Positions 7,709 to 28,300 are shown, numbered from the stretch's first letter. The stretch: DNA of 46,272 nucleotides from a virus (IMGVR_UViG_3300022707_000608:1-46272); one strand, 5' to 3'. The notes: generated from the letters alone by a model not told the origin. A program made the numbers and translations.

Positions 7709-7713
7709 CAGTT

Positions 7714-9560: not shown

Positions 9561-9588
9561 AATTAAGTCATATTTTTAAGCAGGTTTC

Positions 9589-9867: not shown

Positions 9868-9869
9868 TC

Positions 9870-9995: not shown

Positions 9996-9997
9996 TA

Positions 9998-10117
9998 ATG
10001 CCTAGTCATAGCGTCCCTAGAAGGCGTAGGGGTGGATCTAAAATGACGGGTACACGTAAATCAAGAATTGGGGGATTTAAGAGGCGTGGGAGAAGAAAAC
10101 GCAGGAAACGTAGATAA
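9998..10117 (+). CDS. Protamine-like arginine-rich mini-protein
   Basis: 39 residues, ATG two bases after the previous stop. The sequence is dominated by arginine: RRRRGG near residue 8 and GFKRRGRRKRRKRR at the C-terminus, with no acidic residue. This is the composition of protamines or of DNA-condensing virion peptides such as the microvirus J protein. Together with the two preceding basic mini-genes, and right after the capsid gene, it suggests a packaged DNA-neutralising peptide; there is no direct proof. It overlaps the start of the next gene. Confidence 0.6.
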   Translation: MPSHSVPRRRRGGSKMTGTRKSRIGGFKRRGRRKRRKRR

Positions 10118-10589: not shown

Positions 10590-13461
10590 TAAAAAATTTA
10601 CGATTTCGTTGGTTATGATAGCAAAAAACGAAGAAGCCAACTTACCGGCATTGTTAGAAACCACGAAATCACTTGTAGACGAGATCATTGTCGTTGATAC
10701 TGGTTCAACGGATAAAACTGTTGAAATCGCAAAGTCTTATGGTGCCAAAGTCTTTGAAGAAGGAGATCGGTTTTGTCGAATTCTTGGACCAGAACACGTA
10801 AAGTTTTTTAAGGAACACGGAGTTGAAGTCAAAGAAGGCGAGAAGATATTTGATTTCGGTGCAGCCAGAACTTATTCATTTACTAAACCTACCAAAGATT
10901 TCATTATCTGGTTAGACGGAGACGATCTTTTAGTAGGTGCGAATAAGCTCAAAGACATTATCAATCTTAATCTAGATCCACAGAAACAAACTGGCATTCA
11001 TTTACTTTATAAGTATGAGCAAGATGAAAACGGAATATCACTTACTGAGCATTATAGGGAACGCGTGTTACCCAACAACGGTAAGTTCCGGTGGCAGGGG
11101 ATACTCCACGAAGTCCTGGTGCCAGATATTGAAACCAAATATATTAACGTAGATCCTATTGATTGTCACGTACAGCATGTCACTACAATAGGCAGTACAC
11201 GCAAGAATGATTCGGTAATGAGGAATACGAAGACCCTGTTGTATGATCTTCATCGACAAGGCAAGGAACCCGATCCCAGGACTCTGTTCTACTTAGGTGA
11301 GGCGTTCAAGTTGTTGAAGAATGACAAGGCTCTCAAATTCTATTTACAATATGTGGATTTAAGTGGATGGGATGAAGAACAGTGTCTAGCCAGTACACGT
11401 ATTGCTGACCTTTATATGCTTCAAGGCGATAACCAAAAGGCTCTGGATTGGAGTTACAAAGCAATTCAATATAAACCAGATTTTCCGATTGGTTATATTG
11501 CGGTCGCCACAGCTTATTATGCAATGGAAAAGTGGCCTGAGTGTGAGCAGTTCGCTTCTTTAGCTTTAAAGACTGAGCAACCTCATACAATGACGCTTAT
11601 TAACGACAAACACAATCTCTTTACACCGAATTTATTATTAGCCGAAGCCAGTTGGAAACAACATAAAGTTAAGAGTGCAATTAAATACTGCGACAAATGT
11701 TTTGAATATGATCCCAAGAATGCACGTATTAAGACTATCAAACTTACGTGTCTACGCACTATCAAAGAAGAGGACATTGCAGCAGCAGTTAAGACACTTG
11801 GGGATTACTTGGTTGAAGAAGGTGATGTCCTTAAAGCATGTAGATTAGTTGAATCGGCTATCCCTATTACTCACGAAGACGATCCAAGGATAGAACATCT
11901 CAAACATGCCTATGGACATACTTTCAAAGACCGAGTTTTTAAAGCCAGTGTACGGGATCTGAACAGCAAACTCGATCCTAAAGTTGAGATCAGTCCTGAG
12001 TACTTGATGATGTTTAATGATATCCTGAAGTTTAAACCTGAGACTATTATTCTTTATACACCTGATGAATTGTTGATGAATTGGTTGGGAAGCAAGTTAC
12101 CTAAAACAAAAATTGTTAGATACAATAAACAATCGTTTGAAAATAAAGAGCAAGGAGACATGTTGATTTTAGATAACATGTTTCATAGTGATGGAGACTT
12201 ACGTAATACTTTAGAACAATTGGAATATCAACATAATCCTGAACAAATTATTTTAACTACACCACATTATTATCGAGATGGTGTTTATCCTTTGAATGTG
12301 GCGAGACTAGAAACGGTGCTTCAAGATAAATATGTTTGGATGCTTACACCACTTCCAAATAAGATGTTGTATATTTGTTATAGTTCTTCCGATACAATTT
12401 ATAAGTTGGACATAGCATTTATTTGTGGAGGCTCACACGAAGATTGGGGACCACTTAGTATCTACACAGGTATTGGTGGTAGTGAAGAAGCTACGATTTA
12501 TTTGACCGAAGAGTTGGCTGCATTAAAACACAATGTCACGGTTTGGTCACAGGTACCGTATGAATGCATATACAAGGGTGTGAGATGGAAAAGACACACT
12601 ACTTTACATCGTGGACAAGTATTTGATATTGCGGTATTATGGCGTATTCCGCATTATCTAGATGACTACAATTTCAAAGCCGAGAAGACATTCTTATGGC
12701 TACATGACGTTCCCCAGGAATTCTGGTTCACGAACGAACGTCTCAAGAAAGTTGATAAGATATTTGCTTTGAGTCAATACCACAAAAGTTTGTTACCAAA
12801 GAATCTCCAAGACATTACAATTGTCACACGCAATGGCGTGGACTTGGATCAGTTTAAGACCGCAGTAAAACGTGATCCTAATAAAGTTATTTACACAAGT
12901 TCTTATGACCGAGGGTTGGAGCATCTGCTTAAGATTTGGCCTGAAGTAAAAGCAGCCGTTCCTAAAGCAGAACTCCATATTTATTATGGATGGGGGACGT
13001 TTGATTCACTCAGACAAGACGCTCCCTTTAAACGTTGGAAGTCAGAAATGATGCAGCTCATGTACGATCTAGATGGTGTGTTTGAGCATGGGCGCATAGG
13101 ACAATTAGAACTGGCTAAGGAATATCAGTCAGCCAGCATCTTTGCTTATCCCTGTCACTTTGAGGAGATCAGTTGTATCTCAGCCATGAAGTCGCAGGTA
13201 GCAGGATGTGTCCCCCTCACTACTGACTATGCTGCGTTGGCTGAGACTAATTTATTCAGCATTAATAGGATAAAAGGTAATCCTAAGAACAACCTTGAAG
13301 TATTAACAGCTTTTAGAGATAAATTGATTGCATTCTTAAGAACTGACTGTGATAGAAAAATGATTAGTGATAAAGCTAAGAAATCATTTTCTTGGACCGC
13401 AGTTGCTAAAGATTGGAACGTTCATTTTGAAAATGAACTGAAAGAGGGGAACAATGACTGA
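10582..13461 (+). CDS. Large fused glycosyltransferase: GT2 + TPR + GT-B
   Basis: 959 residues from ATG 10582; GGGGGG at 10572-10577 sets this start, not the earlier in-frame ATG at 10486. Residues 1-230 are a GT2 domain (ISLVMIAKNEEANLP, IIVVDTGSTDKT, and DGDD as DxD, like SunS and LPS-core glucosyltransferases). Residues about 250-440 are TPR-like helical repeats (FYLGEAFKLLKNDKALKFYL, YMLQGDNQKALDWSYKA). The C-terminal third is GT4-like: GGSEEATIYLTEELAALKHNV, TRNGVDLDQF, IYTSSYDRGLEHLL and the E-rich site FEEISCISAM. It lies among virion genes, so it may glycosylate a virion protein or host surface glycan. The two active sites suggest stepwise addition of two sugars. Confidence 0.8.
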   Translation: MVDKKFTISLVMIAKNEEANLPALLETTKSLVDEIIVVDTGSTDKTVEIAKSYGAKVFEEGDRFCRILGPEHVKFFKEHGVEVKEGEKIFDFGAARTYSFTKPTKDFIIWLDGDDLLVGANKLKDIINLNLDPQKQTGIHLLYKYEQDENGISLTEHYRERVLPNNGKFRWQGILHEVLVPDIETKYINVDPIDCHVQHVTTIGSTRKNDSVMRNTKTLLYDLHRQGKEPDPRTLFYLGEAFKLLKNDKALKFYLQYVDLSGWDEEQCLASTRIADLYMLQGDNQKALDWSYKAIQYKPDFPIGYIAVATAYYAMEKWPECEQFASLALKTEQPHTMTLINDKHNLFTPNLLLAEASWKQHKVKSAIKYCDKCFEYDPKNARIKTIKLTCLRTIKEEDIAAAVKTLGDYLVEEGDVLKACRLVESAIPITHEDDPRIEHLKHAYGHTFKDRVFKASVRDLNSKLDPKVEISPEYLMMFNDILKFKPETIILYTPDELLMNWLGSKLPKTKIVRYNKQSFENKEQGDMLILDNMFHSDGDLRNTLEQLEYQHNPEQIILTTPHYYRDGVYPLNVARLETVLQDKYVWMLTPLPNKMLYICYSSSDTIYKLDIAFICGGSHEDWGPLSIYTGIGGSEEATIYLTEELAALKHNVTVWSQVPYECIYKGVRWKRHTTLHRGQVFDIAVLWRIPHYLDDYNFKAEKTFLWLHDVPQEFWFTNERLKKVDKIFALSQYHKSLLPKNLQDITIVTRNGVDLDQFKTAVKRDPNKVIYTSSYDRGLEHLLKIWPEVKAAVPKAELHIYYGWGTFDSLRQDAPFKRWKSEMMQLMYDLDGVFEHGRIGQLELAKEYQSASIFAYPCHFEEISCISAMKSQVAGCVPLTTDYAALAETNLFSINRIKGNPKNNLEVLTAFRDKLIAFLRTDCDRKMISDKAKKSFSWTAVAKDWNVHFENELKEGNND

Positions 13462-13759
13462 ACCAGTGAAAGATACCAGGGAATTAACAGTAGAAGGTCA
13501 TATCAATGAGGTGAAGCAACATTTTAAGGAACCTCATTTTGCTACCATGCCCGAAGATTTGGTAACAAAGTGTAGGGAACTTTATGATATCGCAGCACGT
13601 GAGAACCCTGAAGATCCTGTGGGTTGGATTGTGGACTTCAATTCTCATTATCCTATAAACTTTGAAATGGGTACGGAATCAAGTCGTGTTGGCAAGATTC
13701 TGGAGTGTGCTAAGATCGCATTGAAAAAGGAAGCAGCTAAAAAACCAAAGGCTAAATAA
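13454..13759 (+). CDS. Unknown acidic/basic helical protein
   Basis: 101 residues; the start overlaps the glycosyltransferase stop by eight bases and GAGGGG precedes it. Helical, with a Lys/Ala-rich tail (IALKKEAAKKPKAK). No motif or TM segment is seen. Possibly a chaperone or minor structural protein; function unknown. Confidence 0.6.
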   Translation: MTEPVKDTRELTVEGHINEVKQHFKEPHFATMPEDLVTKCRELYDIAARENPEDPVGWIVDFNSHYPINFEMGTESSRVGKILECAKIALKKEAAKKPKAK

Positions 13760-13761
13760 AC

Positions 13762-14181
13762 ATGTCTGGTAATAATGAGTGGTTAGAGTATAATCTAAAA
13801 CCCTTGCTTAATACAGTCATATCTTTATTGGCTTCGTTAGGCGCGAACATGGGCAATATCTTGGCTGAGGGTGAATTAGCGTCTTCAGTTGTTGGAGATA
13901 ATGATATCGTGTCTTTAACCAATACAGAGTCAGCAAGTATTTTTGTAAGTGCTGCAATAGGTACTTCAAATGATACAGGGTCCTGGAAGTTCGAGCTTCC
14001 AGATGGTGTAGGTACTAAAACTATTATCAAACGTACTTCACATCAAGCACCGAATGTGGTATATCAATTTGTACCTACTCCATTCTTACTGGCGGTAGGT
14101 GAAACCGTTACTTTAAAACAAGTTCATACAAAAACAGGTAAGACAGCAAAAGGCTTTATTATAGCTTATAAAACGTCGTAA
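13762..14181 (+). CDS. Beta-rich virion-type protein, no signal peptide
   Basis: 139 residues starting two bases after the previous stop. After an N-terminal helix (NTVISLLASLGANMGNIL) the rest is alternating beta strands with many Thr, Ser and Val, resembling decoration or tail-fibre beta-sandwich domains. It is the first of a run of beta-rich genes that extends to about 19 kb. No specific family is recognised. Confidence 0.6.
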   Translation: MSGNNEWLEYNLKPLLNTVISLLASLGANMGNILAEGELASSVVGDNDIVSLTNTESASIFVSAAIGTSNDTGSWKFELPDGVGTKTIIKRTSHQAPNVVYQFVPTPFLLAVGETVTLKQVHTKTGKTAKGFIIAYKTS

Positions 14182-14210
14182 AATCATTGGGGGAAAAAAG
14201 GAGAAACAAA

Positions 14211-15338
14211 ATGAACATAAAGAAAATAATGTTAGCGTTGTTGCTGACTGTGTTATTGCCATTAGCGAGTGCTAACGCTTCTGATCCTGATGCGAATCAG
14301 CCAGTGCGTCTCAATGATGGTACGAACGACTTTGGTTTTGCAGTTGCAAATCCGGTAGAAGTACAAATCGGTGATGGAACTGACACTGCTACAGTCACAG
14401 GCTCTGGTGAATTGAATGTGATCCTGGGTGCTAATTCTGGCGTTGATATTGGTGATGTAGATGTAACCAGTGTTATTCCAGGTGTAGGTGCTACAAACTT
14501 AGGTAAAGCTGAGGATGCTGCTCATACTACTGGTGATGTCGGAGTATTAGGGCTTTCAGTTCGTAGAGATGCGGACACGTCGTTAGTTGATACTGACGGT
14601 GATTACGCGCCATTGCAGGTCAATGCGACAGGTGCTTTGAAAGTGGAAATTGTTGAAAGTGTTTCTACAGGAGGTACGTCTGCGGTCGATGACTCAGCGT
14701 TTACGGTAGCTGTTGATTCCGTGACTCCAGTAGGTTATTTGGCAGATGAAACCACGCCTGATAGCGTAGATGAAGGTGATGTTGGTTTAGCTCGTATGAC
14801 ATTAGATAGAAAAGTATTGAATGTCATTGTTGATGCTACGACTGATTCACAACGTCTAGCTATCAATTCAAGTGGTGAAGCACAAGTAGATGTGGCTGCA
14901 CATGCACTCACAAATGCGAATGCGGTGCCAATCAGCAAAGACAATAGTGCAAACAGTGAAACTAATCCTATCTTCGTACAAGATACTGACCAAATCGTCA
15001 GTTCTAACGAAGTCCACGATTACGATACTGCTGCTGCTGTAGCTGCTGCTGCAACAAGCAATCACGATTACACAGTAGTTGGTACTACGTTCTTTCTTAA
15101 GAGCGTGACTTTTGCTGCTGGTCGTGCTGGAAAGTTTGAAATTCAAACTGGTCCAATTGCATCTTTAGTAACGGTTAAAACGGGTTTTACGAGTCCATCA
15201 ACACCGACTCAAACCGTTGTATTTGATCCAGCTAGAGAAGTTCCTGTAACATCTACTGGTACTGTTCGTGTTATTCGCACGAATCGTTCTCTAGTAGCGC
15301 AAGACGTGTATAGTACAATCGAAGGTTTTGATGTCTAA
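14211..15338 (+). CDS. Secreted beta-repeat virion or fibre-type protein with signal peptide
   Basis: 375 residues from ATG 14211, set by AAGGAG at 14198-14203; the upstream in-frame ATG has no site. Residues 1-23 are a textbook Sec signal peptide (NIKK, then IMLALLLTVLLPLA, cleavage after SANA, mature end SDPDANQ). The mature part has repeated 'DG...L.V...G.L.V' units (for example DTDGDYAPLQVNATGALKV), as in tail-fibre and surface proteins, an alanine-rich stretch near 285-300, and a C-terminal beta domain. It is likely a receptor-binding or decoration protein, but the export signal is odd for a cytoplasmically assembled phage. Followed by a terminator-like hairpin. Confidence 0.7.
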   Translation: MNIKKIMLALLLTVLLPLASANASDPDANQPVRLNDGTNDFGFAVANPVEVQIGDGTDTATVTGSGELNVILGANSGVDIGDVDVTSVIPGVGATNLGKAEDAAHTTGDVGVLGLSVRRDADTSLVDTDGDYAPLQVNATGALKVEIVESVSTGGTSAVDDSAFTVAVDSVTPVGYLADETTPDSVDEGDVGLARMTLDRKVLNVIVDATTDSQRLAINSSGEAQVDVAAHALTNANAVPISKDNSANSETNPIFVQDTDQIVSSNEVHDYDTAAAVAAAATSNHDYTVVGTTFFLKSVTFAAGRAGKFEIQTGPIASLVTVKTGFTSPSTPTQTVVFDPAREVPVTSTGTVRVIRTNRSLVAQDVYSTIEGFDV

Positions 15339-15350
15339 ATAGGATAAAAT

Positions 15351-15378
15351 GGGAGAGGCTTCGGCTTCTCCCTTTCCT
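15351..15378 (+). terminator. Intrinsic terminator with C(UUCG)G loop
   Basis: GGGAGAGGC (15351-15359), loop TTCG (15360-15363), GCTTCTCCC (15364-15372) with one G-U pair, followed by TTTCC. The nine-pair stem with a UUCG tetraloop is exceptionally stable. The short T-run suggests partial termination, lowering expression of the downstream genes. It also makes the ATG at 15349 an unlikely start for the next gene. Confidence 0.65.
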
Positions 15379-15390
15379 ATAGGGGGAGAT

Positions 15391-16095
15391 ATGATAAATT
15401 TTATGCGGTTCGGGGTTTTATGCACAAACACTCTAATAGTGTGCTTATTTTTATACGCAACGAGTGTGTTTGCAAGTGATCCAGATGCAACAAATCGAAC
15501 CATCGTAGTTAATGAAGATGGAGTTGTAGTAGATGTAATCAATGATGGTACCTTTGAACGCCTTGCTGTAGATGCTAATATAACCAATATAGAAACTACT
15601 GTTGAAGTAAGACCTGGAACATTTATTGCCGAACCTGCTGTAGACAGTGGATCTAGTAGTGATTTAAATATTGATGGTTCAAGTACTCCTGTTGTATTTA
15701 ATATCGTTCCAAATTCAGGAAAAAAGTTTTTCGTTCATAGAGTTATAATTGTAATACAAGATCAAGGTATTTCTTTTCTTAAGTTTGGTGGAATTACTGG
15801 AGGACTTACGAATGGTGTTGCTGTTGAAGTACAAGAAGGTGGAGAATCAATTAGAGATATAGGAGCCTTTGGTAATATTAAACTTAATTCACAATTTTCT
15901 TTTGGAGGGGGAGGCATTTCATTAACTTCTGCCTCAACCGATTTATTTCAGGTAACTTTTGATATCGCAGCAGTTGGTACTGCATTTGAATTAGTTGACT
16001 CTGATAGTGATTTTTTAAGATTCACGGTTAATGATAATTTGACAACGATTGACCAATTTAAAATTGTAGCTCAAGGATATGAGGTAGATGAATAA
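15391..16095 (+). CDS. Secreted beta-sandwich virion-type protein with signal peptide
   Basis: 234 residues from ATG 15391, with AGGGGGAG at 15381-15388. Residues 1-28 form a signal peptide (hydrophobic LIVCLFLYA, cleavage after SVFA, mature start SDPDATN, matching the SDPDAN start of the upstream protein). The next part has DG..V.V units; the C-terminal 130 residues read GKKFFVHRVIIVIQDQG and LRFTVNDNLTTIDQFKIVAQG, the pattern of a beta-sandwich seen in several phage tail-associated proteins. Its stop overlaps the next start (TAATG). Likely a fibre or decoration component. Confidence 0.65.
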   Translation: MINFMRFGVLCTNTLIVCLFLYATSVFASDPDATNRTIVVNEDGVVVDVINDGTFERLAVDANITNIETTVEVRPGTFIAEPAVDSGSSSDLNIDGSSTPVVFNIVPNSGKKFFVHRVIIVIQDQGISFLKFGGITGGLTNGVAVEVQEGGESIRDIGAFGNIKLNSQFSFGGGGISLTSASTDLFQVTFDIAAVGTAFELVDSDSDFLRFTVNDNLTTIDQFKIVAQGYEVDE

Positions 16096-16556
16096 TGCCT
16101 AAACAAATAGGAATTGTAGGTCCAGATGGTAAAATTGTTACAGTTACAACTGATGGTTCAAAACAACGATTAGATGTTAAATCAACAGCAGACTTTTCAG
16201 GAACAATTAAAACATTTGATGTTGGAACAAAAGTTAATAAATTTGTAGCGACTTCTCCATCATCACATCCAACTACACTTGTTTCACATACTGTTGCAAC
16301 AGGAAAGAATTTATATATCGAAAATTGGCAAGCAGGATCGGTTGATAATATTAAGATGGTGCTTGAATTTAGAATTGGTGGAGTTGTTAAAGATAAATTT
16401 GGATTTCATACAGTTAATAAAAACAACTATGTATTTAAACCATTTGGAATTTTTTCTCCTATTAAAGCTGCTTCTGGAGTAGTAGTTGAAATTGTCAGTA
16501 TATCAGGTGATACTGATAAAGAAGTTATAATATCATTTAATGGAACGGAAATATAA
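16095..16556 (+). CDS. Beta-rich tail-associated protein, no signal peptide
   Basis: 153 residues, TAATG overlap with the preceding gene. The N-terminus IGIVGPDGKIVTVTTDGSK resembles the mature N-terminal units of the two upstream secreted proteins (DG..V.V..DG...RL.V), but there is no signal peptide. The remainder is a beta sandwich (KNLYIENWQAG, KMVLEFRIGGVVKDKFGFH). Likely a structural paralogue of its neighbour and part of the same fibre or decoration module. The next gene starts in a TAATG overlap. Confidence 0.6.
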   Translation: MPKQIGIVGPDGKIVTVTTDGSKQRLDVKSTADFSGTIKTFDVGTKVNKFVATSPSSHPTTLVSHTVATGKNLYIENWQAGSVDNIKMVLEFRIGGVVKDKFGFHTVNKNNYVFKPFGIFSPIKAASGVVVEIVSISGDTDKEVIISFNGTEI

Positions 16557-16915
16557 TGGCTAAAACAATTAAAAATGGATTTATAGATGAAGATACAACA
16601 TTTCCAGTTAACGTATGGATTCCTGCTAACAATAAACATGTAAGAATTTTTTCTATTACAGGTTTTATATTGAATCGTGTTGCTGCTAAAGATGTAATAC
16701 TTAAAATACAAATAGATATAGATGGAGGACTGAAAGATATCGCAGTAATTGGAATACGAGGTGAAGCATTTCAAAATATTGTTGTGCCTATTCCACATGA
16801 TTTAGAAACTGATATTGGAGATGGTACAGCACCAGCAATAAAATTAATTGAGTTAGGTGCTAGTAATAGTACTGATTGGGACGGATTTTTTGCAGTTATT
16901 GGAGAAGAAGTTTAA
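16556..16915 (+). CDS. Small beta-rich tail-associated protein
   Basis: 119 residues, TAATG overlap with the previous gene. Predicted to be almost all beta strands (KHVRIFSITGFILNRV, DVILKIQIDIDGGLKDIAV) ending in an acidic DWDGFFAVIGEEV. No signal peptide. Similar size and texture to the two genes that follow the same pattern; a minor fibre, decoration or adhesion-domain protein is plausible. Confidence 0.6.
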   Translation: MAKTIKNGFIDEDTTFPVNVWIPANNKHVRIFSITGFILNRVAAKDVILKIQIDIDGGLKDIAVIGIRGEAFQNIVVPIPHDLETDIGDGTAPAIKLIELGASNSTDWDGFFAVIGEEV

Positions 16916-16927
16916 AAGGAGAACGAA

Positions 16928-17290
16928 ATGTCAAATCGGTTTGAAGAAAGAAATGTAGGAAGAGTAAATCTAAGTGTTAAGGTTGTGAACGTTGTTGCTG
17001 GTGCAGATGATATAGAAATACTTGCTGCCCCAGGTGCAGGGAAACGGTACCGTGTGTATGGAGTTGTGATTACTCAACAAGGAACAGCAGCAGCCGATTT
17101 TTTAGTACGCTTTGAAGACAACAAAGATGTCTTAGGCGCAATTGTACCTAATGACGGTACGCCCGTTACTGATAAATTAAATGGTCAGTACGTAGAAGGT
17201 GACACTAATCAAGGCTTAGATGTTGACGTAGAAAATCAAGCTTCTGATGATGCCACTATTGTGGTTTACCATACTGTGGAGGAAGACTAA
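16928..17290 (+). CDS. Small beta-sandwich virion-type protein
   Basis: 120 residues, AAGGAG before ATG. The sequence RYRVYGVVITQQGTAAADFL and the closing VDVENQASDDATIVVYHTV give a beta-sandwich pattern similar to phage decoration or tail proteins. No signal peptide. It is followed two bases later by a gene that does have one. Confidence 0.6.
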   Translation: MSNRFEERNVGRVNLSVKVVNVVAGADDIEILAAPGAGKRYRVYGVVITQQGTAAADFLVRFEDNKDVLGAIVPNDGTPVTDKLNGQYVEGDTNQGLDVDVENQASDDATIVVYHTVEED

Positions 17291-17291
17291 A

Positions 17292-17693
17292 ATGAATTTA
17301 TGGGATATTAACTGGAAGAAATTAGCAATTGGATTCTTCATTGGTTTAATGTGTGCAGCTTGTATTAAATCTGCATTTGCAGCCCAAAGAGGAGATGACA
17401 TCACCTTGGAACAGATGGTTAAGTGTTCTCAATATGCTGTCACACAAGTAAGTGTCAGTGATACCAATACACAAGTTACATTTACTAGAGACACAAAAGC
17501 AATTTACATCGAAAACATTGGAGCCAATGAAATCTTTTGGGACCCTGCTGATGGCGTTGCGGTTGCGGATACAAGTCACAGTAAATTAGAACCTGGAGAT
17601 AACCGTAGTCTGAGTACATTCGCAACACTGGCTATCGGAATCATTGCTAGTAGTGCCGAGAGTTCTACTGCATTGGTAGAGGTTTGTTCTTAA
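17292..17693 (+). CDS. Small secreted beta-rich protein with signal peptide
   Basis: 133 residues from ATG 17292, two bases after the upstream stop. Residues 1-30 form a signal peptide (WKK, then LAIGFFIGLMCAACI, cleavage after SAFA). The mature protein of about 103 residues is a beta domain with YIENIGANEIFWDPADG, a pattern common in phage structural proteins ('..I.N.G...i..d'). C42 and C132 could form a disulfide after export. Probably a structural accessory. Confidence 0.65.
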   Translation: MNLWDINWKKLAIGFFIGLMCAACIKSAFAAQRGDDITLEQMVKCSQYAVTQVSVSDTNTQVTFTRDTKAIYIENIGANEIFWDPADGVAVADTSHSKLEPGDNRSLSTFATLAIGIIASSAESSTALVEVCS

Positions 17694-17702
17694 GGAGATA
17701 CC

Positions 17703-19019
17703 GTGAAAAAATTTATTATAATACTCGTTTCAGTTTTACTGCTATTTAACGCGAAAAGTGAATCCGCTCTTATCACGCAAACGGGTGGTGGTGGAGAAGC
17801 TAACGCCACGACTGAAGCGGAATTAGAAGCGCAACTTTCCGATGTCACTGACGTAATTACAGACAACGATTCTGCTGGTGGTGATTTAACAGGATCGTAT
17901 CCTAATCCTACAATTGGTACTAATGCCGTAGCTTTAGGAACCGATACAACCGGAAATTATGTAAATGCTGCTACCGGAAGTCAAGGTCTTACGCTAACTG
18001 GAACCGAAGGTGCAAGTCTTGGACTTCAAGACTGTGCAGCAAATGAAGTCTTAAAACGTAATGCAGGAGATACAGCCTGGGAGTGTGCAACCGATTCAAC
18101 TGGAGGTTCTCCAGCTTTTAATGATATCACAACTGGTACTAACACAATTGCAACTATGACCGTAGGTACGGGAGCAACCATGACTACAAGTGGTTCTGGA
18201 ACCATAGTAGCCACGACTTCAGCAGCCCTCGCAGCTAATGGAAGTAATTGTTCGGCTGGAAGTTATCCTCTTGGTGTAGATGATGTTGGTGCTGTAGAAT
18301 CTTGTACAGATGCAAGTACTGAAATTGATTCTATAGTGGCTACGCACACAGCGATAGCTAGTGCTCACCACACCGCGACCGTAGAAACCAATTCACTTGA
18401 AACCGTGACCACAGGAATTGCAACAACTGAAATTCCAATTGGTACCGCAGCAGATACAGTTGTTTACGCTGCTCTTAGTGGTGACGTAACAATGACCAAT
18501 GCAGGTGTTACAACTGTGATAACTGCTACTACCTCGGCTGCTGGCAAAGCAGAATTAGCTACGGCTACTGAAACCACAACAGGTACGGATACCGGAAGAG
18601 TGGTAACACCAGATGGTTTATCGGGTTCAGATTATGGAAAGAGAGTGGCTTTCTTAGTAGTCTTAGACGATACCACCGATACTGCTGTTGCAGATGGAGC
18701 AGGAGATTTCACGTTTCGTATTCCAGCAGTACTGAATGGTTATAATTTAGTTGATATAGAATGTGGAGTATATATTGCAGGAACCACAAATACAACAGAT
18801 ATCCAAATCGCTAATGTCACACAAGCTGCGGATATGCTTTCAACCAAATGTACAGTTGACAGCACTGAAACAGATAGTAGTACGGCTGCTACTGCACCTG
18901 TTATTGACGGTGCCAATGATGATGTCGCTACTGCGGATCAGATTAGGATTGATGTAGATGCAGTAAGCACAACTGCTGCAAAGGGGCTTTATGTTGAACT
19001 TACATTTCAAAATCCTTAA
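17703..19019 (+). CDS. Tail-fibre-like protein with signal peptide
   Basis: 438 residues from a GTG start, AAGGAG eight bases ahead. Residues 1-22 are a signal peptide (KKFIIILVSVLLLFNAKSESA). The mature part has GGDLTGSYPNPTIG, the well-known repeat of phage tail fibres and collar-type proteins, then long Thr/Ala/Ser-rich repetitive stretches (DTTGNYVNAATG, TATETTTGTDTGRVVTPDGL) and a C-terminal beta domain. Likely a trimeric fibre. It is Cys-poor, with C117, C132, C182 and C196 in the middle. The next gene starts 29 bases before its stop. Confidence 0.75.
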   Translation: MKKFIIILVSVLLLFNAKSESALITQTGGGGEANATTEAELEAQLSDVTDVITDNDSAGGDLTGSYPNPTIGTNAVALGTDTTGNYVNAATGSQGLTLTGTEGASLGLQDCAANEVLKRNAGDTAWECATDSTGGSPAFNDITTGTNTIATMTVGTGATMTTSGSGTIVATTSAALAANGSNCSAGSYPLGVDDVGAVESCTDASTEIDSIVATHTAIASAHHTATVETNSLETVTTGIATTEIPIGTAADTVVYAALSGDVTMTNAGVTTVITATTSAAGKAELATATETTTGTDTGRVVTPDGLSGSDYGKRVAFLVVLDDTTDTAVADGAGDFTFRIPAVLNGYNLVDIECGVYIAGTTNTTDIQIANVTQAADMLSTKCTVDSTETDSSTAATAPVIDGANDDVATADQIRIDVDAVSTTAAKGLYVELTFQNP

Positions 19020-20163
19020 ACTAGCGTTCATATTATTGCTTGTATGTAATAATGTGTATGCTGGTGATACCTCTAATCTTGAAGCTGCTTGGTTACTTGA
19101 TGAAGCAAGTGGAACTCGATTTGATGAAACTGCCAATAATAATGATTTAACAGATAACAATACTGTGGGTCAAGCTTCAGGAGCAAATTGTCAGTTTGAT
19201 GAATGTGCAGATTTTGAAGATACTAATAGTGAATTTTTATCAATCACTGATGGCAGTCAAACAGGTCTTGATTTAACTGGAAAATTTACATTATTAACAT
19301 GGATTAGATTAGAAAAGACTGTGGTTTCTCAAGATCATATTATGGGTAAATCAGATTCAGGACCAACAGCGAGTTATGTTTTATATTTAGAAGATAATCC
19401 CTCTGCTAATAGCGTTAAGTTGACACTTGAAGGCACAATTTTTGTTGGTACAACTGCTATAATAGTTGCAACAAATACTCATTTAGCTGTAGTATATGAC
19501 CAAACTGATGTTATTCAATATTTTGATGGAAGTGTAGATAAAACTACTGCACACACAACAGATGGTACGGATACAGGCAATCCATTTCATCTTGGAGCGC
19601 GATCTGATCCTGCTCAATTTTTTGACGGAACGCTTGATGAAGCAGTTGTCTTTTCCAGAGATTTATCAACATCCGAAATTAATGATATCATGGATAATGG
19701 TATCGCAGCATTCATAAGTCCAGCAGCAGCTTTTATTCCAAGAGTTATTCTTATGACATCTATCATGCAATTCTTTAATTCGCATATACATTATAATATG
19801 ACAGTTAATAAACACAGAAAGAAATTTGACATTGAAAGACCGTATTGGATGACACTGTTAGATACTCCTGAAGCCTGGGCTGCGACGGTCGAAGAAAAGA
19901 CCGAAGCTCTTGTTGAATTTATAAGTCGAGCCTCAGACCAAGCAAGCTATAAAACAACCAATGGACGTTACAAACAAAAATGGCCTGAACTCAAGAATGG
20001 TATGACTTACGAAACCCATGAATATAATGGACCTAATGGTGTAGGATATATTCAAAGAGCTATTAAAGTAGAAGGGGACAAAACCTATGTAGTAGAAAAG
20101 CACGTTGGTCCAGAAACCGACAGAAATATTGCTACTGAATGGACGGAGATAAAAAATGATTAA
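18991..20163 (+). CDS. Secreted LamG (concanavalin-like) adhesion protein
   Basis: 390 residues from ATG 18991 (AAGGGG at 18981-18986). Signal peptide 1-24 (HFKILKLAFILLLVCNNVYA). Residues about 28-240 match a LamG/laminin-G3 jelly roll: AAWLLDEASGTRFDETANNN, WIRLEKT, VYDQTDVIQYFDGS, and FDGTLDEAVVFSRDLS, the classic closing motif. This fold binds glycans and would act as adhesin. The C-terminal 150 residues are helical and different (KKFDIERPYWMTLLDTPEAW), perhaps a virion attachment or fusion part. It overlaps both neighbours. Confidence 0.75.
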   Translation: MLNLHFKILKLAFILLLVCNNVYAGDTSNLEAAWLLDEASGTRFDETANNNDLTDNNTVGQASGANCQFDECADFEDTNSEFLSITDGSQTGLDLTGKFTLLTWIRLEKTVVSQDHIMGKSDSGPTASYVLYLEDNPSANSVKLTLEGTIFVGTTAIIVATNTHLAVVYDQTDVIQYFDGSVDKTTAHTTDGTDTGNPFHLGARSDPAQFFDGTLDEAVVFSRDLSTSEINDIMDNGIAAFISPAAAFIPRVILMTSIMQFFNSHIHYNMTVNKHRKKFDIERPYWMTLLDTPEAWAATVEEKTEALVEFISRASDQASYKTTNGRYKQKWPELKNGMTYETHEYNGPNGVGYIQRAIKVEGDKTYVVEKHVGPETDRNIATEWTEIKND

Positions 20164-21295
20164 AACTTTGAATCAGTTACAAACTTATTTAGCAGGACGA
20201 CGAGGGTTTAATGCCTTCACAGATATGGATGCAGCAGAACGCTCTGTAGCCAATGATCGCCTGAACTTGCTCAGAGACTCTATTTGGTATTTTAAGCAAG
20301 GCTGGGGATTCAATCGTTCCATTCATCAATTCACTACTACAGGTGCATTCACTACAGGTACCGTATCTGGTAGTGCTGCCACAAACACGGTTACTGGAGA
20401 CACTACGGGTTGGCCTACTAATGTAGCAGGTATTCCTTTAAAGGGACAATTTATTCTTATTAACGACAAAGCCTACATTATTTTGAATCGTGTGAGCACA
20501 ACTGAAATCACTATCGAAGGTAAGTTGTTAGAAGAACTTCCTGCTGGCACACCATATTCTATTTTATTTTCAAACTATCCTATGCGTTGGGACATTGGCG
20601 CAATTCGTGGAGTAACGCGAGACATCACTCCCATTGGAACCAGACCCGAAGAAATTTCTACACAAGATAATGATATTGGAGCCGTGGAGATGGTTTCTAT
20701 TGTGGGCCAAAGCAATGCGGAATTTGATTCTGGAACCGGAGATTTGAGTAACGGATCTGCTGTAATTACAAATGTTGCTGGTCTTACTCTTGACGATGAT
20801 TCTTTAATTGGTAAAGCCATAATGAATGCTGGTATTCCAGATATCCATTATATTATTGGAGTCAATGATGGCGCGAGTACAATTACATTGGACCGTGACT
20901 TTAATGGTACCACTGTTGTTACAGCCATACTTATTGTTGATCCCAAAGGAACTCCGATCTTACAACTCAAACCATTCCCTGTAGACAGACAACTCATTCG
21001 TTTGAGTTACACAACGTCTGTTCCTGAGATGGTGGGTGCTAATGATCTCACAGGATTGCCTAATGATGGACCCATGCTTAGTGGCATAGATGTCATGGTC
21101 ACGTCATGGGAAACTGTTGGAGAACGTGGATTCATTAATGAAGTATTGTTCCAAGACAAGAAATTTAAAGAGTCTATGAGGATCTTAGCTTATCGAGGCG
21201 TGGAATTACAGCGTAAAATGTATTTGCAACAAGACAGATTTGTGAGAGCAAACAGGTTCAGAGATTCAAATCCTTGGAATAGGTTGCGAAGATAA
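20156..21295 (+). CDS. Tail adaptor/tubular-type protein
   Basis: 379 residues, eight-base overlap with the LamG gene, no signal peptide. The N-terminal helix bundle (LNQLQTYLAGRRG, DAAERSVANDRLNLLRDSIW) and the C-terminal helices (LFQDKKFKESMRILAYRG) bracket a beta-rich insert with TTEITIEGKLLEELPAG and an inserted Ig-like segment. This helix-beta-helix arrangement resembles head-to-tail adaptors and the gp11/tail-tubular-A group of podoviruses. It likely joins the portal to the tail hub encoded next. Confidence 0.6.
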   Translation: MIKTLNQLQTYLAGRRGFNAFTDMDAAERSVANDRLNLLRDSIWYFKQGWGFNRSIHQFTTTGAFTTGTVSGSAATNTVTGDTTGWPTNVAGIPLKGQFILINDKAYIILNRVSTTEITIEGKLLEELPAGTPYSILFSNYPMRWDIGAIRGVTRDITPIGTRPEEISTQDNDIGAVEMVSIVGQSNAEFDSGTGDLSNGSAVITNVAGLTLDDDSLIGKAIMNAGIPDIHYIIGVNDGASTITLDRDFNGTTVVTAILIVDPKGTPILQLKPFPVDRQLIRLSYTTSVPEMVGANDLTGLPNDGPMLSGIDVMVTSWETVGERGFINEVLFQDKKFKESMRILAYRGVELQRKMYLQQDRFVRANRFRDSNPWNRLRR

Positions 21296-21314
21296 CATGT
21301 CAAGGGGTGCAGTT

Positions 21315-23687
21315 ATGCGTCGAAAAACATGGGTTTTATGCACTATTTTTGCCCTTGTAGGGACTATGGTAGCACCTACCCCTATCCAAGCCACAAAACT
21401 GGCTGTAATCGACGATTTCAAGTCCCTCGATAGAGATACTTCAGGTGATAAAGTAGTCAATGGTGGACACGTTAAATTAGACAATGCTGTGGTTCAAGGA
21501 CGCAATCTTCAAGTTGTTAAGGGAAGGGACAGACTCAATGATACAGCCCACGCAGATACTACTGTGTCTGGGCTTTTTTATTATGAGAACAGTGCAGGAA
21601 CGACTAAGAAATTCATTGTCAAGGAAACCGATGAACTCGTTACTTATGACACAGATGGAACCAATCGCACACAAATCTTGGCATCCCTAGCTGATGAAGC
21701 CGTAGACTTTGTTCAGATTGGAGATAATGTTTACATCAATTCTTCAACAGATGGTTTGCATAAATGGACGGGTTCTGGAAGCGCAACTGCTATAACAGGT
21801 GTGAGTGTTCCAAGTAGTGTTGATTTTAGTTCTACATCTACGGCAGGTGGTTTGATATCAGGAAATGATTGTGAACTTTCTTGTAAAGGTTCAGTAGCAT
21901 TAGGAGTTGTGACTCAAGTAGATTGTAGTAGTGGTCCAGTTAGAGATTGTGGATCAGGATTTACTTGTCTTGGTGATAATGGTGACGGTATATGTGTAGG
22001 CACTGTACCTGAAGCCTGTGTTCTTATTGTAGAAGAAACTTCTAGTACTTATAGTTATAGAATTACTTCATACAACAATACTGAAGGACTTGAATCAGAA
22101 GCGAGTTTAGTTGATACAGCATCATTAGTAGGCAGTGATTTCATAGAAATTGTAGTTCCTACTGGCACAGCAGGTGTGTGTTCAGTTGTATTATTATCAG
22201 GCAATGAAACAGCTACTACTGGAACCCTGGCTTCTGCACCTGCAGATCCATTTAATGTATTTAGAGTTTACAGAACTGTGGCTAGTGGGAGTGAATACTT
22301 TTTAGTTGGTGAACAAGATACCGGAGTTTTTACAGACGGTAAAACAGATATTGCACTTTCTATTCCTTTAGATACCACAATTAATACTATAGAACCACCT
22401 AGTTTTAGATATATCACAGAATACAAAGGGATCTTATTTACTGCTGAAGGCACAACAATTCGTTTTCAACGTGCTTCAGTAGATATTACCACTGACATGG
22501 ATAAATATTGGTTGGAACCCGATCAAATTCCTACTGGCGCTAGAAAGCGTATTACAGGATTACATAATACTGCCAACAGTTTGTTGATATTTACTGAGAA
22601 CAGAATCATGGAATTAACAGGATTCGGTCTGACTTCATTTAGACTTCGCACACTTATGGAAGGTATTGGCGGTGTCACTGATGAAACCATTGAAACCGAT
22701 ACCAATGGAGACGTTATTTTCTTTGCCGGTGTTCAGGGTGTGTACAAACTTAATGTAGGTAGACAAGCAACTGATGACTTAACGGGTACTGCTATTGCGC
22801 GTGATGCCAGTATTCAACGTATTTCTTCACCGATTCTTGATGTAATGTTTGCAGGAAATGACGATCAAATTGATTTGGACCCAGCAGACTATTCTACTTC
22901 TCACGCTTATTATGACTTAGACAATGATTTTTATTGGTTGTTTATTAATGAAGACGCTTTTATTTACGATAATCTTAATAAAGTGTGGTCACACATACCT
23001 GGAATCAAAGCAAGTGTGAGTGCATACAGACGTTCAGCTAATTCAGCAGGACAGGGCGTGTTATTGGATGACGTGGGTTTCTTCTGGAATAACTGGACAG
23101 GTTATGAAAACGGTGCAGAATCAGGAACCGTCACCGGTAATCCAACGAGTTCAGCTAGCACAACACTCACTGACACAGGAGCAACATTTAACACAACCTT
23201 AGATGGTCTTGCTGGAGTCTGGGTAATTGCTGATTGCTCCGATACCTTGCAATACAGACGTATTAGCTCAAACACAGCGACAGTACTAACTGTAGATACT
23301 GCCTGGGATAGTAATCCCACAACAAGTTGTGATTACTACGTATCATATATCATATTTGATATTCTTACTAAAGATTATTCACTGGCACAGGCTCCAAAGG
23401 AATCAATAACACAAGCTTTCACTGTCGTGCATAATCAAGCACCAGCGACACAAGATGTAGCGAGTTCATTGTTTATAAATAAATCTAGTACACGTACTGG
23501 CAGCAAATTAACCTTAGATTTTGCTGATGCCAGCAAACCATTCGTATCTAAGTATGGTCACAAAGGCCGAGGGAATTGGATGCAGTATGGTCTAAGAAGT
23601 TTTGTCTATAACATATCAGACACAGTAGACACACCAATTGATATCATAAGTTATGCCATACGTGGTATTGCTTACGAGGAGGATTAA
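21315..23687 (+). CDS. Tail hub / DNA-stabilisation-type beta-propeller protein with signal-like N-terminus
   Basis: 790 residues from ATG 21315, chosen for AAGGGG (21302-21307); an ATG at 21297 lacks spacing. After a Sec-like N-terminus (MRRKTWVLCTIFALVGTMVA, cleavage after PIQA) it has many short blade-like repeats (KKFIVKETDELVTYDTDG, FVQIGDNVYINSSTDGLHKW, FRYITEYKGILFTAEG, LLIFTENRIMELTGFG, DNDFYWLFINEDAFIYDN). This texture is typical of P22 gp10-like and tail-tubular-B hub proteins of short-tailed phages. A Cys-rich insert (about 190-245) is unusual for a cytoplasmic protein. Downstream lie the internal virion genes. Confidence 0.6.
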   Translation: MRRKTWVLCTIFALVGTMVAPTPIQATKLAVIDDFKSLDRDTSGDKVVNGGHVKLDNAVVQGRNLQVVKGRDRLNDTAHADTTVSGLFYYENSAGTTKKFIVKETDELVTYDTDGTNRTQILASLADEAVDFVQIGDNVYINSSTDGLHKWTGSGSATAITGVSVPSSVDFSSTSTAGGLISGNDCELSCKGSVALGVVTQVDCSSGPVRDCGSGFTCLGDNGDGICVGTVPEACVLIVEETSSTYSYRITSYNNTEGLESEASLVDTASLVGSDFIEIVVPTGTAGVCSVVLLSGNETATTGTLASAPADPFNVFRVYRTVASGSEYFLVGEQDTGVFTDGKTDIALSIPLDTTINTIEPPSFRYITEYKGILFTAEGTTIRFQRASVDITTDMDKYWLEPDQIPTGARKRITGLHNTANSLLIFTENRIMELTGFGLTSFRLRTLMEGIGGVTDETIETDTNGDVIFFAGVQGVYKLNVGRQATDDLTGTAIARDASIQRISSPILDVMFAGNDDQIDLDPADYSTSHAYYDLDNDFYWLFINEDAFIYDNLNKVWSHIPGIKASVSAYRRSANSAGQGVLLDDVGFFWNNWTGYENGAESGTVTGNPTSSASTTLTDTGATFNTTLDGLAGVWVIADCSDTLQYRRISSNTATVLTVDTAWDSNPTTSCDYYVSYIIFDILTKDYSLAQAPKESITQAFTVVHNQAPATQDVASSLFINKSSTRTGSKLTLDFADASKPFVSKYGHKGRGNWMQYGLRSFVYNISDTVDTPIDIISYAIRGIAYEED

Positions 23688-23690: not shown

Positions 23691-24554
23691 ATGCCACATA
23701 CAACAGACGTTATAAGAGATAGAGCGATTGAACAAGGTATCGGTGCCTCTCCTCTTGTGGGCCAAGCCATTCAAAGACGGGATATCGAACAAACCCGTAC
23801 CCTACAACAAAATGTAGCTGCTTCCAGAGCTTTGTTAGCATCACAACGTGAACAAAGACAGACTAAATTTGCTTCGGCTGCTTTAAGAGCTGCTAATAAA
23901 GCAGGACAAGCACAAAGAAGGACTCCGAGTATAACATCACAGCAACCTGGAATCTCACCTCTTAGTATTGAAGCTGCGATTGGTCCTGGAGATACGCCTA
24001 CTTTTAGACTTAGAGGTATTACAGGTGATCGCACCCTTAGAGGTTTTGAAAGCCTACGAGAAAATCTGCGTAGCTTCAGTCCAGACATATTACAAAATAT
24101 CGTTGTCGGTGGTGGTGGTTCTGAATCTGCTCGTCTTATTGCACAGCTTCAAGAGATCCCAGGTATTAAAGTCAGGAAACTTGAACCCCTCGCTTTCGCG
24201 CAACAAGTAGCAAGTCTCAGACAAAGAAGAGATGCTGCATTTCCTCCAAAAAAAGAACCGTTCTTCGGTTTACCTACTAGAATAGGTGGAGTACGTAAAG
24301 GTAGAGCTGTAACAACACGTCCTACAACTGGATCAGGATTGTTAGCGTTTTCTCTTCAAAGAGGGCGGACTCTATTACAAAATGAAAAAGCTAGAGTAGT
24401 GAGTGCAGGAGCACGACAATTTTTAATACGTGCAACCGCCTCAAGTGCTACTAGCGAAGACATAGGTTTAAGAAATAGATTATTGAATGCTTTAAGAACA
24501 GGCAGAGGATTTCAATTTTTACAAGAATTTTCTAGACTCGGAGGAAGTATTTAA
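23691..24554 (+). CDS. Gln/Arg-rich virion-internal type protein 1
   Basis: 287 residues, starting three bases after the hub gene. Rich in Ala, Arg, Gln and Ser, predicted helical in the first 70 residues (RAIEQGIGASPLVGQAIQRR) and disordered elsewhere; no TM segment. First of three genes, each overlapping the next in TAATG, that precede the very large protein. Placement after the tail hub matches ejection (internal core) proteins of podoviruses. Confidence 0.5.
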   Translation: MPHTTDVIRDRAIEQGIGASPLVGQAIQRRDIEQTRTLQQNVAASRALLASQREQRQTKFASAALRAANKAGQAQRRTPSITSQQPGISPLSIEAAIGPGDTPTFRLRGITGDRTLRGFESLRENLRSFSPDILQNIVVGGGGSESARLIAQLQEIPGIKVRKLEPLAFAQQVASLRQRRDAAFPPKKEPFFGLPTRIGGVRKGRAVTTRPTTGSGLLAFSLQRGRTLLQNEKARVVSAGARQFLIRATASSATSEDIGLRNRLLNALRTGRGFQFLQEFSRLGGSI

Positions 24555-25324
24555 TGGCTGACAAAGATGATATTAAACGAAAAGCTGAGACGTTGGGTAT
24601 AAAAGACGAGAAAAGTAGTCTACTCAATAAGCTTGATGCCAAGTTTCCTGAACTCGCTGCTATGACAGAAGAACAAGAAGTCTCTGAACGCAAACGATTC
24701 CAAACCTTGAAAAAGGAGTTTGATGTGCTTCTTGACATGGAGAAGAAAAGAATTGAAATCGCGTTGTTAAATCCTGACGCTCCCATCGAAGCTACCAATT
24801 TGAGTCCTGAAGTAGCGAAACAATTAAATAAATTGCAAAGTCAGATTGTAAATATCGTACAGGGTCCAGGAGAAGAAGAAGTCGAGAAATTGCTAAGAGA
24901 GAATCCTGAACGTATTGAGATTGCTGAAGGCATTTCTATGACTGAACAAGAAGTCTTTGATCTCATGGCTAATCCCAATGAATTAAGCGGTGCTATACAG
25001 AGTCTCAATGAACTCGGCAATTCTGATGCTGCTAATAAATTATCTGAACTCGTTGGATTTAATCTACAACAAGATACACTTTCTAATGTAATTCAAGTTC
25101 CTCCAAGTACTGCTCCTCAAGCACAGGTACCACCTCTTGAAGATCCTAATTTGGTTGGACCTACAGCAAACCCTGTGGAGAACATCAAAAGAAATATTCG
25201 TGGATTTTTGACAGGCGGTGTTACACGTGGAGCAGCAGAGACAGTAAGAGACATCTCTTCTTCTCTTAAAAGAGCACGTGCTTTAGATAGAGATAATATC
25301 GTGCCTACAGGGAGTCTATCTTAA
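24554..25324 (+). CDS. Coiled-coil virion-internal type protein 2
   Basis: 256 residues, TAATG overlap with the previous gene. It is helical with long charged stretches (EEQEVSERKRFQTLKKEFDV, LDMEKKRIEIALLNPD), a Pro-rich linker around 190-210, and a short C-terminal amphipathic segment (RNIRGFLTGGVTRGAAETV). Likely an ejection or internal virion protein by context; no sequence motif confirms it. Confidence 0.5.
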   Translation: MADKDDIKRKAETLGIKDEKSSLLNKLDAKFPELAAMTEEQEVSERKRFQTLKKEFDVLLDMEKKRIEIALLNPDAPIEATNLSPEVAKQLNKLQSQIVNIVQGPGEEEVEKLLRENPERIEIAEGISMTEQEVFDLMANPNELSGAIQSLNELGNSDAANKLSELVGFNLQQDTLSNVIQVPPSTAPQAQVPPLEDPNLVGPTANPVENIKRNIRGFLTGGVTRGAAETVRDISSSLKRARALDRDNIVPTGSLS

Positions 25325-28300
25325 TGGCTCTACGTTATGATAAAGCATCCAATAAGTTTGTTGAGGTCGATGATAATGTTCAATCTTTAGAGGATCAAAT
25401 TGATCCAATTGCGCGTGCAGATATGTCTGTGCCTGATCTTGGTGAAGTAAACAATATTGTTAGATCCGAAATTGGTGAAGGAGACGAAGACCCGATTCCA
25501 TTCACAGATCCCAGAGCACACGATATTATTAATCGTTCCGTTGCTTTCGTTAAACGCAGAAAACAATTCCTATCCGCTACTGAGCAACTCGCACAGAATG
25601 ATCCCACCACAGCCGGTGGATTGAAGGATTTCGTAATCGGACAGTCTAAACAATTTGGAATCGGATCTGTGGAAGCACTCAGTCGTGTACTTAATGTAGA
25701 TACAGCAATTGAAGCAGGAGCTACAAGAGGATTAATCCGTCATCTCAAGAACCAAGAAAGTGTTTTTGATGGGATCTTAGAAGCTATTAAAGTTGTGAAT
25801 CCATTACAATCTAGTGCAGAAGCTCAAATCGAAATCGGTAAAGGTGTAACTGAAGGTCTTGCCAAGAATCTTGGATTCGGAGATATTCTTGCTGAAGACT
25901 TAGGTGTTCCTGCTGGACCTGAATTACAAATTCGTATACCTAAAGTTGGAGATAAATTACCTATTACCCCTTTTCATATTATGAGTGGTGTAGCACAATC
26001 TGTTGCAGGAGGTCGTCCTCCTATTGAACTCGTTCCATTTGGTCCAGTGTTCACTACAAGAGGTGCAGTTGGCCTGGTCTTAGACATCGTGCTCTCACCT
26101 ATAACATACTTAAGTTTTGGAACTGTACCTGTTGCTAAGTTCGCTGCTAAAGGAGCTAAAGTTGCAACTAAGGGTAAGTCAGTCCTTCGTTTTGCAGGTA
26201 AAACAGTCTTAACTGATAAACAACTCGCAACAGGAGCAAACCGAATCAAAGCTACAAAGGCTGGACAAAAGACTTTAGAACTCCTGGATATATGGGCTGC
26301 TTCTAGACTCAGTAGAGTCACGGACAAATTATTGATACAACCAGCTAAGAATGCCGGTACTTTTGTTTTAGATAAGTTTAGCCCTACATTCGGTAAAGAC
26401 GTGGATACCGTAAAGTTCTTGCGTAAGACCGAACGCCTGATGGCACAGACCCGTGAGGATTCGGTTGCAGTTGTCAAAGACGCATTCAAAGGATTTACAG
26501 GTGAAGAGAAGATCGAGTTCTTTGAAACCATTTTTAAACGTAGTGAAGCAGAAGCAGGATTTAGAGAAGCACTGAGAGCACAGCTTCCTAAAAAAGAATT
26601 TGCAGCAGTAGCCAAACAATTTGAACAAGGCACGTTTAAGAGTGCGAAGTTTCAGAGAGCACAAGATATGATTATTGGTACTGAAAAGAATCCTGGTTTA
26701 ATGCGGAATCTTGCTCGTCTCGCGGATATGCCTGAAGAAGTCTTGTTTCAAAACTATATTCCAAGTATCTTCAAACAAACTCTTGACAGTTCCTTGGCTA
26801 AGAAAGCTTCGGGTCTACGTAAGAGTAAGGGTGCGTTAAAGAAAAAGTTTAGCACAGAGAATCTTGTGAAAGATCCTGAAGAAGCTTATCTAACAAGAGC
26901 TGCGGATCTCATAAGTGTGGGTTATATCAATCGTGCAGTTCGCAAAGTCTTGAAGAGACACGCTAAGAAGAAAGCTAGTGAAGGACTTGAAGAGTACCTA
27001 CCCTTTGGTGGTAAAGCCACGCGTAGGTTCTTTAAGACCAAAGACATGAACGGTAGAGAGATTCTTGGAGTAGGTGGAATCAAACGTATCTTTCTCCCAG
27101 AAAAAGTCAACAAGTCTATGATTGAGTTCTTAAACAAGAATGCTGTGGAACCCAATGCTTTTATACGTGCTCTGGATATCACTAATCAAAACTTTAAAGC
27201 ATTCGTTACATCCATATTTCCTGCTTTTCATTTCAGGAACCATTTTTCTAATCAGATTCTTAGATTCGAGAACGAGGGTTGGAAAGCTTTTAAAGTAGGG
27301 GATCAACTCCTGGCTACTAAGATTATGTCGAATTCACCTGACATTCTCAAACAAACAATTAAGACTGTAGATGGCCGAGAGTTTACACTAGCTCAAATCA
27401 AGAAGTTTGCCAGAGCTGAAGGTGTTGATGATACCTCACAATTTATGGCTGACATGGGTGGACGTAACTTTGATAAGCTCAGTGACAATGCCATTAGTGC
27501 GAGACTAAGAGATTGGGTTACCTTTAATGCAGGAAGAAATAACTTTGTCAAAATAGGTAGAGAAGTTGGATCTACTATTGAGAACCACGCCAAGATGTCT
27601 AGTTTCGTGCGTTCTATTAAAGATGGATTTAGTAAATCACAAGCAGCACAAATAGCACATCAAGGTTTATTTGATTACGGATCTCTGACTTCCTTTGAAC
27701 GCAATGTAATGAGAAGGTTGATACCCTTTTATACATTTGGTCGCAAGAATCTTGAGCTTCAGGTCCGTACTTTCTTAAAGCATCCTGGTAGACAAGCTGC
27801 TATATTCAAAACAATTAAAGATATAAAAACTGAAGTACTTAGAGGATTGAGTGATGAACAAATGGAAGCATTTAATGAACTCAAACCCAGGTTCTTGCAG
27901 GACTCCTTTGCTATTCCAGCAGGACTAGACAAAGAAGGTCGGATCATGTGGATGACAGGTCTTGGCTTTCCTCAAGAAGACATGCTTGATCTTATGAATG
28001 GAGCAGGACTATGGTTTAGGCTTCGCCCTGAAATTAAGGTTACTGCGGATCTGTTGAGTCGCACAAACATTGCTAAGACCTTGGCTCAGAGCCGTGTTGT
28101 GGCACTGAAAGACGAATACAAAGCACAGGAATTACAGTTCTTGTTCAGCAATGTTTTTAAAACTAAACCTAGTCAAGAACAGGTACGAGATTGGATAAAC
28201 GATCCCAATGGATTCTTTGCACATCCCTTAACAAAATTTATGGATCTTAAAGTAGCGGAACGCACAGTGTTTAGAGCAGGTAGAGCAACGCGCGAGAAAG

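Follow-up and report, generated by a model that had tools for sequence, protein, structure and literature searches.

Sec-type leaders on a selected set of tail-module genes in a distant podovirus and in unrelated environmental phages

The virus record IMGVR_UViG_3300022707_000608, a 46,272-base IMG/VR sequence called the window below, comes from a distant podovirus with terminase, portal and DUF5309-type capsid genes in one block. Six genes of its virion-type cluster, all within positions 14211-23687, begin with Sec leaders of the signal peptidase I (SPI) type. The leaders, the translation starts that produce them, their restriction to certain genes, a paired-cysteine signature in the proteins that carry them and their recurrence in unrelated phages can all be read directly from the DNA. 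On these grounds the leaders are genuine and selective, and real export of the proteins is very probable. The six genes are listed here with leader score (scale described below), predicted cleavage site, number of cysteines in the mature part and anti-Shine-Dalgarno (anti-SD) pairing at the start codon in kcal/mol.

14211-15338, + strand: leader gene 1, fibre/decoration-type virion-module protein; 23-residue leader (14211-14279), score 18.7, ANA^SDPD, predicted mature start SDPDANQPVR; 0 Cys; -8.7
15391-16095, + strand: leader gene 2; 28-residue leader (15391-15474), score 16.6, VFA^SDPD, predicted mature start SDPDATNR; 0 Cys; -9.3
17292-17693, + strand: leader gene 3; 30-residue leader (17292-17381), score 17.0, AFA^AQRG, predicted mature start AQRGDDITLEQMVK; 2 Cys; -9.3
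17703-19019, + strand: leader gene 4, GTG start, fibre-like with the repeat 'GDLTGSYPNPTI'; leader of about 21 residues (17703-17765), score 11.5, SES^ALIT; 6 Cys; -9.2
18991-20163, + strand: leader gene 5, LamG/ConA-like lectin protein (PF13385, E 3e-19); 24-residue leader (18991-19062), score 16.8, VYA^GDTS; 2 Cys; -7.0
21315-23687, + strand: leader gene 6, likely of the tail-nozzle/head-closure family (T7 gp12, P22 gp10, VP1 gp16 type); 26-residue leader (21315-21392), score 10.1, IQA^TKLA; 10 Cys; -7.7
21870-22019, + strand: Cys-rich insertion in the 21315 protein (residues 186-235, 7 Cys; an eighth at residue 289)

Leaders were scored with a sigcleave-type matrix (prokaryotic counts of von Heijne) combined with hydrophobic-core and charge rules; on this matrix seven known E. 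coli signal peptides score 15-23. Four of the leaders (14211, 15391, 17292 and 18991) score like OmpA or Bla, and those of 17703 and 21315 are moderate. A preliminary description of the window had reported Sec signal peptides on exactly these six genes, and all six are present. Predicted mature N-termini also include GDTSNLEAAWLLDE and TKLAVIDDFK, and further AQRGDDITL for 17292 and GDTSNLEAA for 18991. None of the six leaders, inspected by eye, has a consensus lipobox ([LVI][ASTVI][GAS]C) at its cleavage site. The selectivity noted in the same description holds as well: by this score there is no leader call for genes 13762, 16095, 16928 and 20156, and gene 16556 reaches 6.2 with an implausible cleavage site. 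Across the viral loci compared below, leaders were found on 0 of 60 terminase large subunits, 0 of 71 portals and 0 of 13 major capsid proteins.

Chance and misannotation were both considered as sources of these N-termini and rejected. Shuffled N-termini matched the observed score in 0-0.02% of cases for 14211, 15391 and 18991, 0.7% for 17703 and 4.6-5.6% for 21315 and 17292, in a test that preceded a widening of the spacing rule, after which the 17292 score rose from 9.3 to 17.0. A score of at least 13 occurs in 27 of 1479 genes from the 80 loci retrieved when the 14211 protein served as query, versus 4 of 12 consecutive window genes, so four such genes among twelve are not a matter of chance; recurrence in 20 loci, described below, tells against chance too. 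The best Shine-Dalgarno site lies at the leader start in all six genes, with anti-SD pairing of -7.0 to -9.3 kcal/mol, compared with -3.1 and -3.0 kcal/mol at 17349 and 21366, the in-frame internal ATGs from which translation would leave the leader out. Misplaced start codons, which the preliminary description had allowed for, are thus unlikely to account for the leaders.

Cysteine content provides a test of export that is independent of the leaders. According to a passage of PMC7678975 that cites Dutton 2008, the proteins that disulfide-forming bacteria export tend to have an even number of cysteines. In the loci with leader clusters, leader proteins have even counts in 60 cases and odd counts in 9, compared to 42 even and 53 odd among leaderless neighbors. 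With one representative per homology family over all loci, the figures are 76 even and 23 odd for leader proteins versus 748 and 977 for leaderless ones (Fisher p 6e-11). The mature parts in the window hold 0, 0, 2, 6, 2 and 10 cysteines in gene order, 20 in total; the leaderless virion proteins, over 2,853 residues, have none (p 6e-8). Cleavage sites point the same way: of 266 N-termini selected by charge and hydrophobic core alone, 208 have an A-x-A-type site after the core, where shuffles predict 167 (p 4e-8). Together the even-cysteine bias and the enrichment of cleavage motifs argue for translocation over either chance or plain anchors.

The arrangement is, as far as sequence comparison goes, not a one-off, and it is present in unrelated environmental phages. 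Approximately 245 viral loci were gathered by a fetch with the 14211 protein, two IMG/VR scans in which leader-bearing relatives were the queries and one in which the C-terminal domain shared by these was the query. Clusters of three or more leader genes in a stretch of eight are found in 20 distinct loci, a count that is not a prevalence, since the scan queries themselves carried leaders. The proteins are usually of fibre, LamG and beta-helix types, and terminase, portal, capsid, tape-measure or nozzle genes are present in at least 10 loci, of podovirus and siphovirus types. The complete Manatee Spring podovirus MW202554 (L083), for instance, has three consecutive leader genes, including one for a LamG protein, followed by a gene for a GH28-type protein. 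In a family defined by a shared C-terminal domain with two invariant cysteines (A1), leaders are found on at least 37 of 51 members, and several of the others are truncated at contig ends. Matches to the domain also occur in metagenome-assembled genomes of Acidobacteria and Nitrospira, which suggests diderm hosts for the family and nothing firm for the window virus.

The A1 domain itself ('GGTTAATGWNFAANGG') is C-terminal and unnamed; it lies at 16987-17304 in L083 and in about 50 other loci, mostly on leader-bearing phage proteins. A separate observation concerns L251 (G001), where a 4174-aa DarB-like methyltransferase/helicase giant protein (1833-14357) adjoins a leader-rich tail module.

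The preliminary description took the mature parts of the leader proteins for fibre, LamG adhesin and tail-hub proteins; the virion-module types stand, and the tail hub, the 21315 product, gives way to a likely nozzle-family protein. The 21315 protein is directly linked to a protein of Edwardsiella phage ETP-1 (E 3.5e-8), which in turn matches 'head closure Hc3' and the virion protein 8jov (E 1e-14). An iterated hidden Markov model (HMM) joins it with annotated 'phage stabilization proteins', and the nozzle-family profile matches the VP1 nozzle structures (8zkk/8zkm). AlphaFold2 gave a predicted local distance difference test (pLDDT) score of 34 from the single sequence and a weak model, mean pLDDT 46, with 16 nozzle homologues (alignment A2). 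Foldseek run on that weak model placed T7, Pa223, VP1 and SU10 tails among the top matches along with beta-propellers, all with template modelling scores of 0.3 or less. We regard the assignment as likely rather than proven because a profile from which the window protein is left out misses it and the structure models are weak. Its Cys-rich insertion has no counterpart in the 15 aligned family members. The genes around the leader genes are listed below.

13762-14181, + strand: leaderless virion-module protein, 0 Cys
16095-16556, + strand: leaderless virion-module protein, 0 Cys
16556-16915, + strand: leaderless virion-module protein, 0 Cys
16928-17290, + strand: leaderless virion-module protein, 0 Cys
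20156-21295, + strand: leaderless gene directly before the nozzle gene, in the position of T7 gp11, 0 Cys
23691-28614, + strand: three leaderless genes (287, 256 and 1096 aa) after the nozzle gene, 0 Cys

By position, the 20156 product would be the head-tail adaptor, and the three genes at 23691-28614 probably encode internal/ejection proteins. The only homologue of 20156 among the loci (L006, 15780-16958) is itself directly upstream of a nozzle-family gene; pairwise comparison with other adaptors detected no homology. Since leaderless 20156 occupies the expected adaptor position, the boundary of export may run between adaptor and nozzle.

A second leader-bearing nozzle is found in phage L197, with a leader score of 17.3, and there too the gene before the nozzle is leaderless. 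L197 also has leaders on a row of fibre-like genes, on a beta-helix protein that contains three myxobacterial disulfide repeats and on a fibre of the tail collar (tail PHROGs, E 5e-10). The two nozzles have barely any mutual similarity, which suggests that they arose separately. As a side observation, the L197 gene at 9796-12501 combines its leader with three myxobacterial Cys-rich repeats (TIGR02232, E 8e-31; DUF4215); elsewhere this domain is known from proteins that bacteria secrete.

We propose that tail assembly in this phage may be split between two compartments. The head, the portal, the product of the adaptor-position gene and the probable internal proteins would not leave the cytoplasm. 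The proteins of the outer tail, namely the nozzle, the LamG adhesin and those of fibre-like type, would be exported through the host Sec translocon. There SPI would remove the leaders, the proteins would fold outside the cytoplasm and those containing cysteine would be oxidised. The exported parts would then be incorporated into virions by joining DNA-filled heads once lysis opens the inner membrane, or at membrane-docked assembly sites; the timing at lysis is the least certain step. Late attachment of tail parts is feasible, because P22 tailspikes join heads in vitro. The whole chain, from export, cleavage and oxidation of the outer tail proteins to their joining of heads, strikes us as nearly an even call. 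That it amounts to a new way for tailed phages to build their virions, in which the inner membrane divides tail morphogenesis, capsid, portal and adaptor are made in the cytoplasm, and the nozzle and fibres, once exported and oxidised, are attached no earlier than lysis, is a tentative claim, somewhat short of an even call.

Several findings weigh against split assembly. Leaders are on only 2 of 20 distinct nozzle-family proteins with intact N-termini, those of the window and L197, and the score of the window nozzle leader (10.1) is moderate. An HMM built without the window protein fails to recover 21315, so that membership depends on the ETP-1 link and on iteration. Conservation of leaders among homologues, to which the preliminary description had pointed, is found in part: the 14211 protein has relatives in 78 of the fetched loci, and nearly all of these relatives, close ones included, are leaderless, starting with MADG, MADN or similar, and the few with a leader are in L046, L054 and L067. 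The 14211 and 15391 proteins have no cysteine, and therefore disulfides are not the reason for exporting those two. In siphovirus-type loci the cassette sits between head and tail genes, outside the usual position of receptor-binding proteins. Finally, tblastn searches for cultured relatives of the leader cassette returned only uncultured Manatee Spring phages and one Microcystis phage fragment, and thus no isolate with a known host or proteome.

As the main alternative, the leader proteins may be exported and never enter virions, as late adhesins, lectins and polysaccharide-acting beta-helix proteins that are released or displayed on the infected cell. Their roles might be matrix degradation, aggregation or exclusion of other phages, compare the mosaic adhesive trimer (MAT) fibres of Bdellovibrio and secreted depolymerases. 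Secreted bacterial proteins do often contain LamG, GH28/pectate-lyase-like, beta-helix and DUF4215/myxo-disulfide domains, the export of phage-fibre-like proteins by means of signal peptides is known in bacteria (PMC10769870), and the siphophage-type cassettes lie outside the usual fibre position. However, a set of such accessory proteins does not account for the leader-bearing nozzle-family protein and tail-collar fibre, and the leader genes are embedded in the head-tail block. The 14211 protein, moreover, aligns end to end at 58% identity with its nearest leaderless phage homologues after an extra leader of about 24 residues. Because this virion-type protein occurs with and without a leader, the leader is, on these alignments, an addition to a phage protein and not the trace of a captured secreted one. 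We consider the accessory-protein explanation possible, if rather doubtful.

Recent capture of host secreted genes, or functionless hydrophobic N-termini produced by chance (moron genes or misannotation), would fit the host-like extracellular domains in many cassettes and the absence of leaders from most related phages, and is very unlikely in view of the recurrence in 20 loci, the conservation of leaders in family A1, the strong SD sites and the shuffle tests. The N-termini could also be uncleaved hydrophobic anchors, as the preliminary description suggested, tethering tail assembly to the inner membrane or sitting in the virion with the rest of the protein untranslocated. The modest cleavage scores of 17703 and 21315 would suit anchors, but the leaders, at about 17-30 residues, are short and resemble signal peptides, A-x-A motifs are enriched and the even-cysteine bias of the mature parts indicates an oxidising compartment, so that this explanation is unlikely.

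Known systems share parts of the arrangement. The short-tail modules of T7 (gp11/gp12), P22 (gp4/gp10/gp9) and VP1 (nozzle 8zkk/8zkm) likewise have an adaptor-position gene and then a nozzle-family gene in the head-tail block; to our knowledge they are leaderless and assembled in the cytoplasm, whereas the window nozzle and fibres have Sec leaders and the nozzle has a Cys-rich insertion. Virion proteins with Sec leaders (pIII/pVIII) are assembled at the membrane in Ff filamentous phages, but these are single-stranded DNA inoviruses extruded without lysis, and the proteins are unrelated. Lysis proteins such as signal-anchor-release (SAR) endolysins and spanins are also phage-encoded, exported late proteins with N-terminal signals, although they serve lysis and are few per genome. 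Phage genomes usually hold few signal peptides; the rumen phages of PMC5723332 have 0-2 predicted ones each. The MAT fibres of Bdellovibrio are phage-fibre-like proteins with signal peptides that have been located at the cell surface, several of them of S74 type (PMC10769870), with a trimeric tip of S74 or related type that follows a conserved domain of about 130 residues; they are encoded by a bacterium and come with no nozzle, unlike the phage context here, and no sequence match between the two came up in this analysis. The S74 Pfam domain had no match in the window proteins.

The head genes of the source virus are leaderless and are as follows.

3367-4938, + strand: terminase large subunit, leaderless (phrog_38, E 1e-83)
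5074-7218, + strand: portal protein, leaderless (phrog_1216, E 5e-21; PF23899 SU10 portal, E 1e-22)
8646-9560, + strand: major capsid protein of DUF5309/LUZ24-like type, leaderless, 0 Cys (phrog_1328, E 2e-51; tblastn matches are LUZ24-like and Manatee Spring podoviruses)

The major capsid protein is at most about 30% identical to those of LUZ24-like/DUF5309-capsid podoviruses, and the phage is therefore classed, by sequence, as a distant relative of the LUZ24-like podoviruses and not a member of the genus. Megablast of the 9-27 kb region found no near DNA relative among GenBank phages, IMG/VR pattern scans with the capsid and nozzle proteins found no relatives, and the 15391 protein has no homologue among the fetched loci. 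Inside the virion block, a 958-aa protein (10585-13461, + strand) contains two glycosyltransferase parts (phrog_13126, E 1e-45), and Manatee Spring phage MW202524 has glycosyltransferase genes at the matching position. Far from the cluster, an 88-aa open reading frame at 44350-44616 (- strand) has a seventh strong Sec-type leader (score 17.1) and 4 cysteines in its mature part.

Tailed-phage particles are taken as completed in the cytoplasm, and we know of no described tailed phage that makes part of its virion outside it. In 5.39 million open papers, most subscription journals lying outside our scope, no tailed phage was found to be described as having several tail proteins with leaders, in keeping with the preliminary description, and exported clusters of phage accessory proteins were likewise not found described. 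If split assembly is true in several lineages, part of the tail would be made and oxidised outside the cytoplasm, the tail would perhaps stay unfinished until lysis, and phage adhesins could draw on extracellular domains rich in disulfides. Even if the proteins never enter virions, many uncultured phages would export clusters of adhesins and polysaccharide-acting proteins, and export would alter the interpretation of genes that are often listed as auxiliary metabolic genes.

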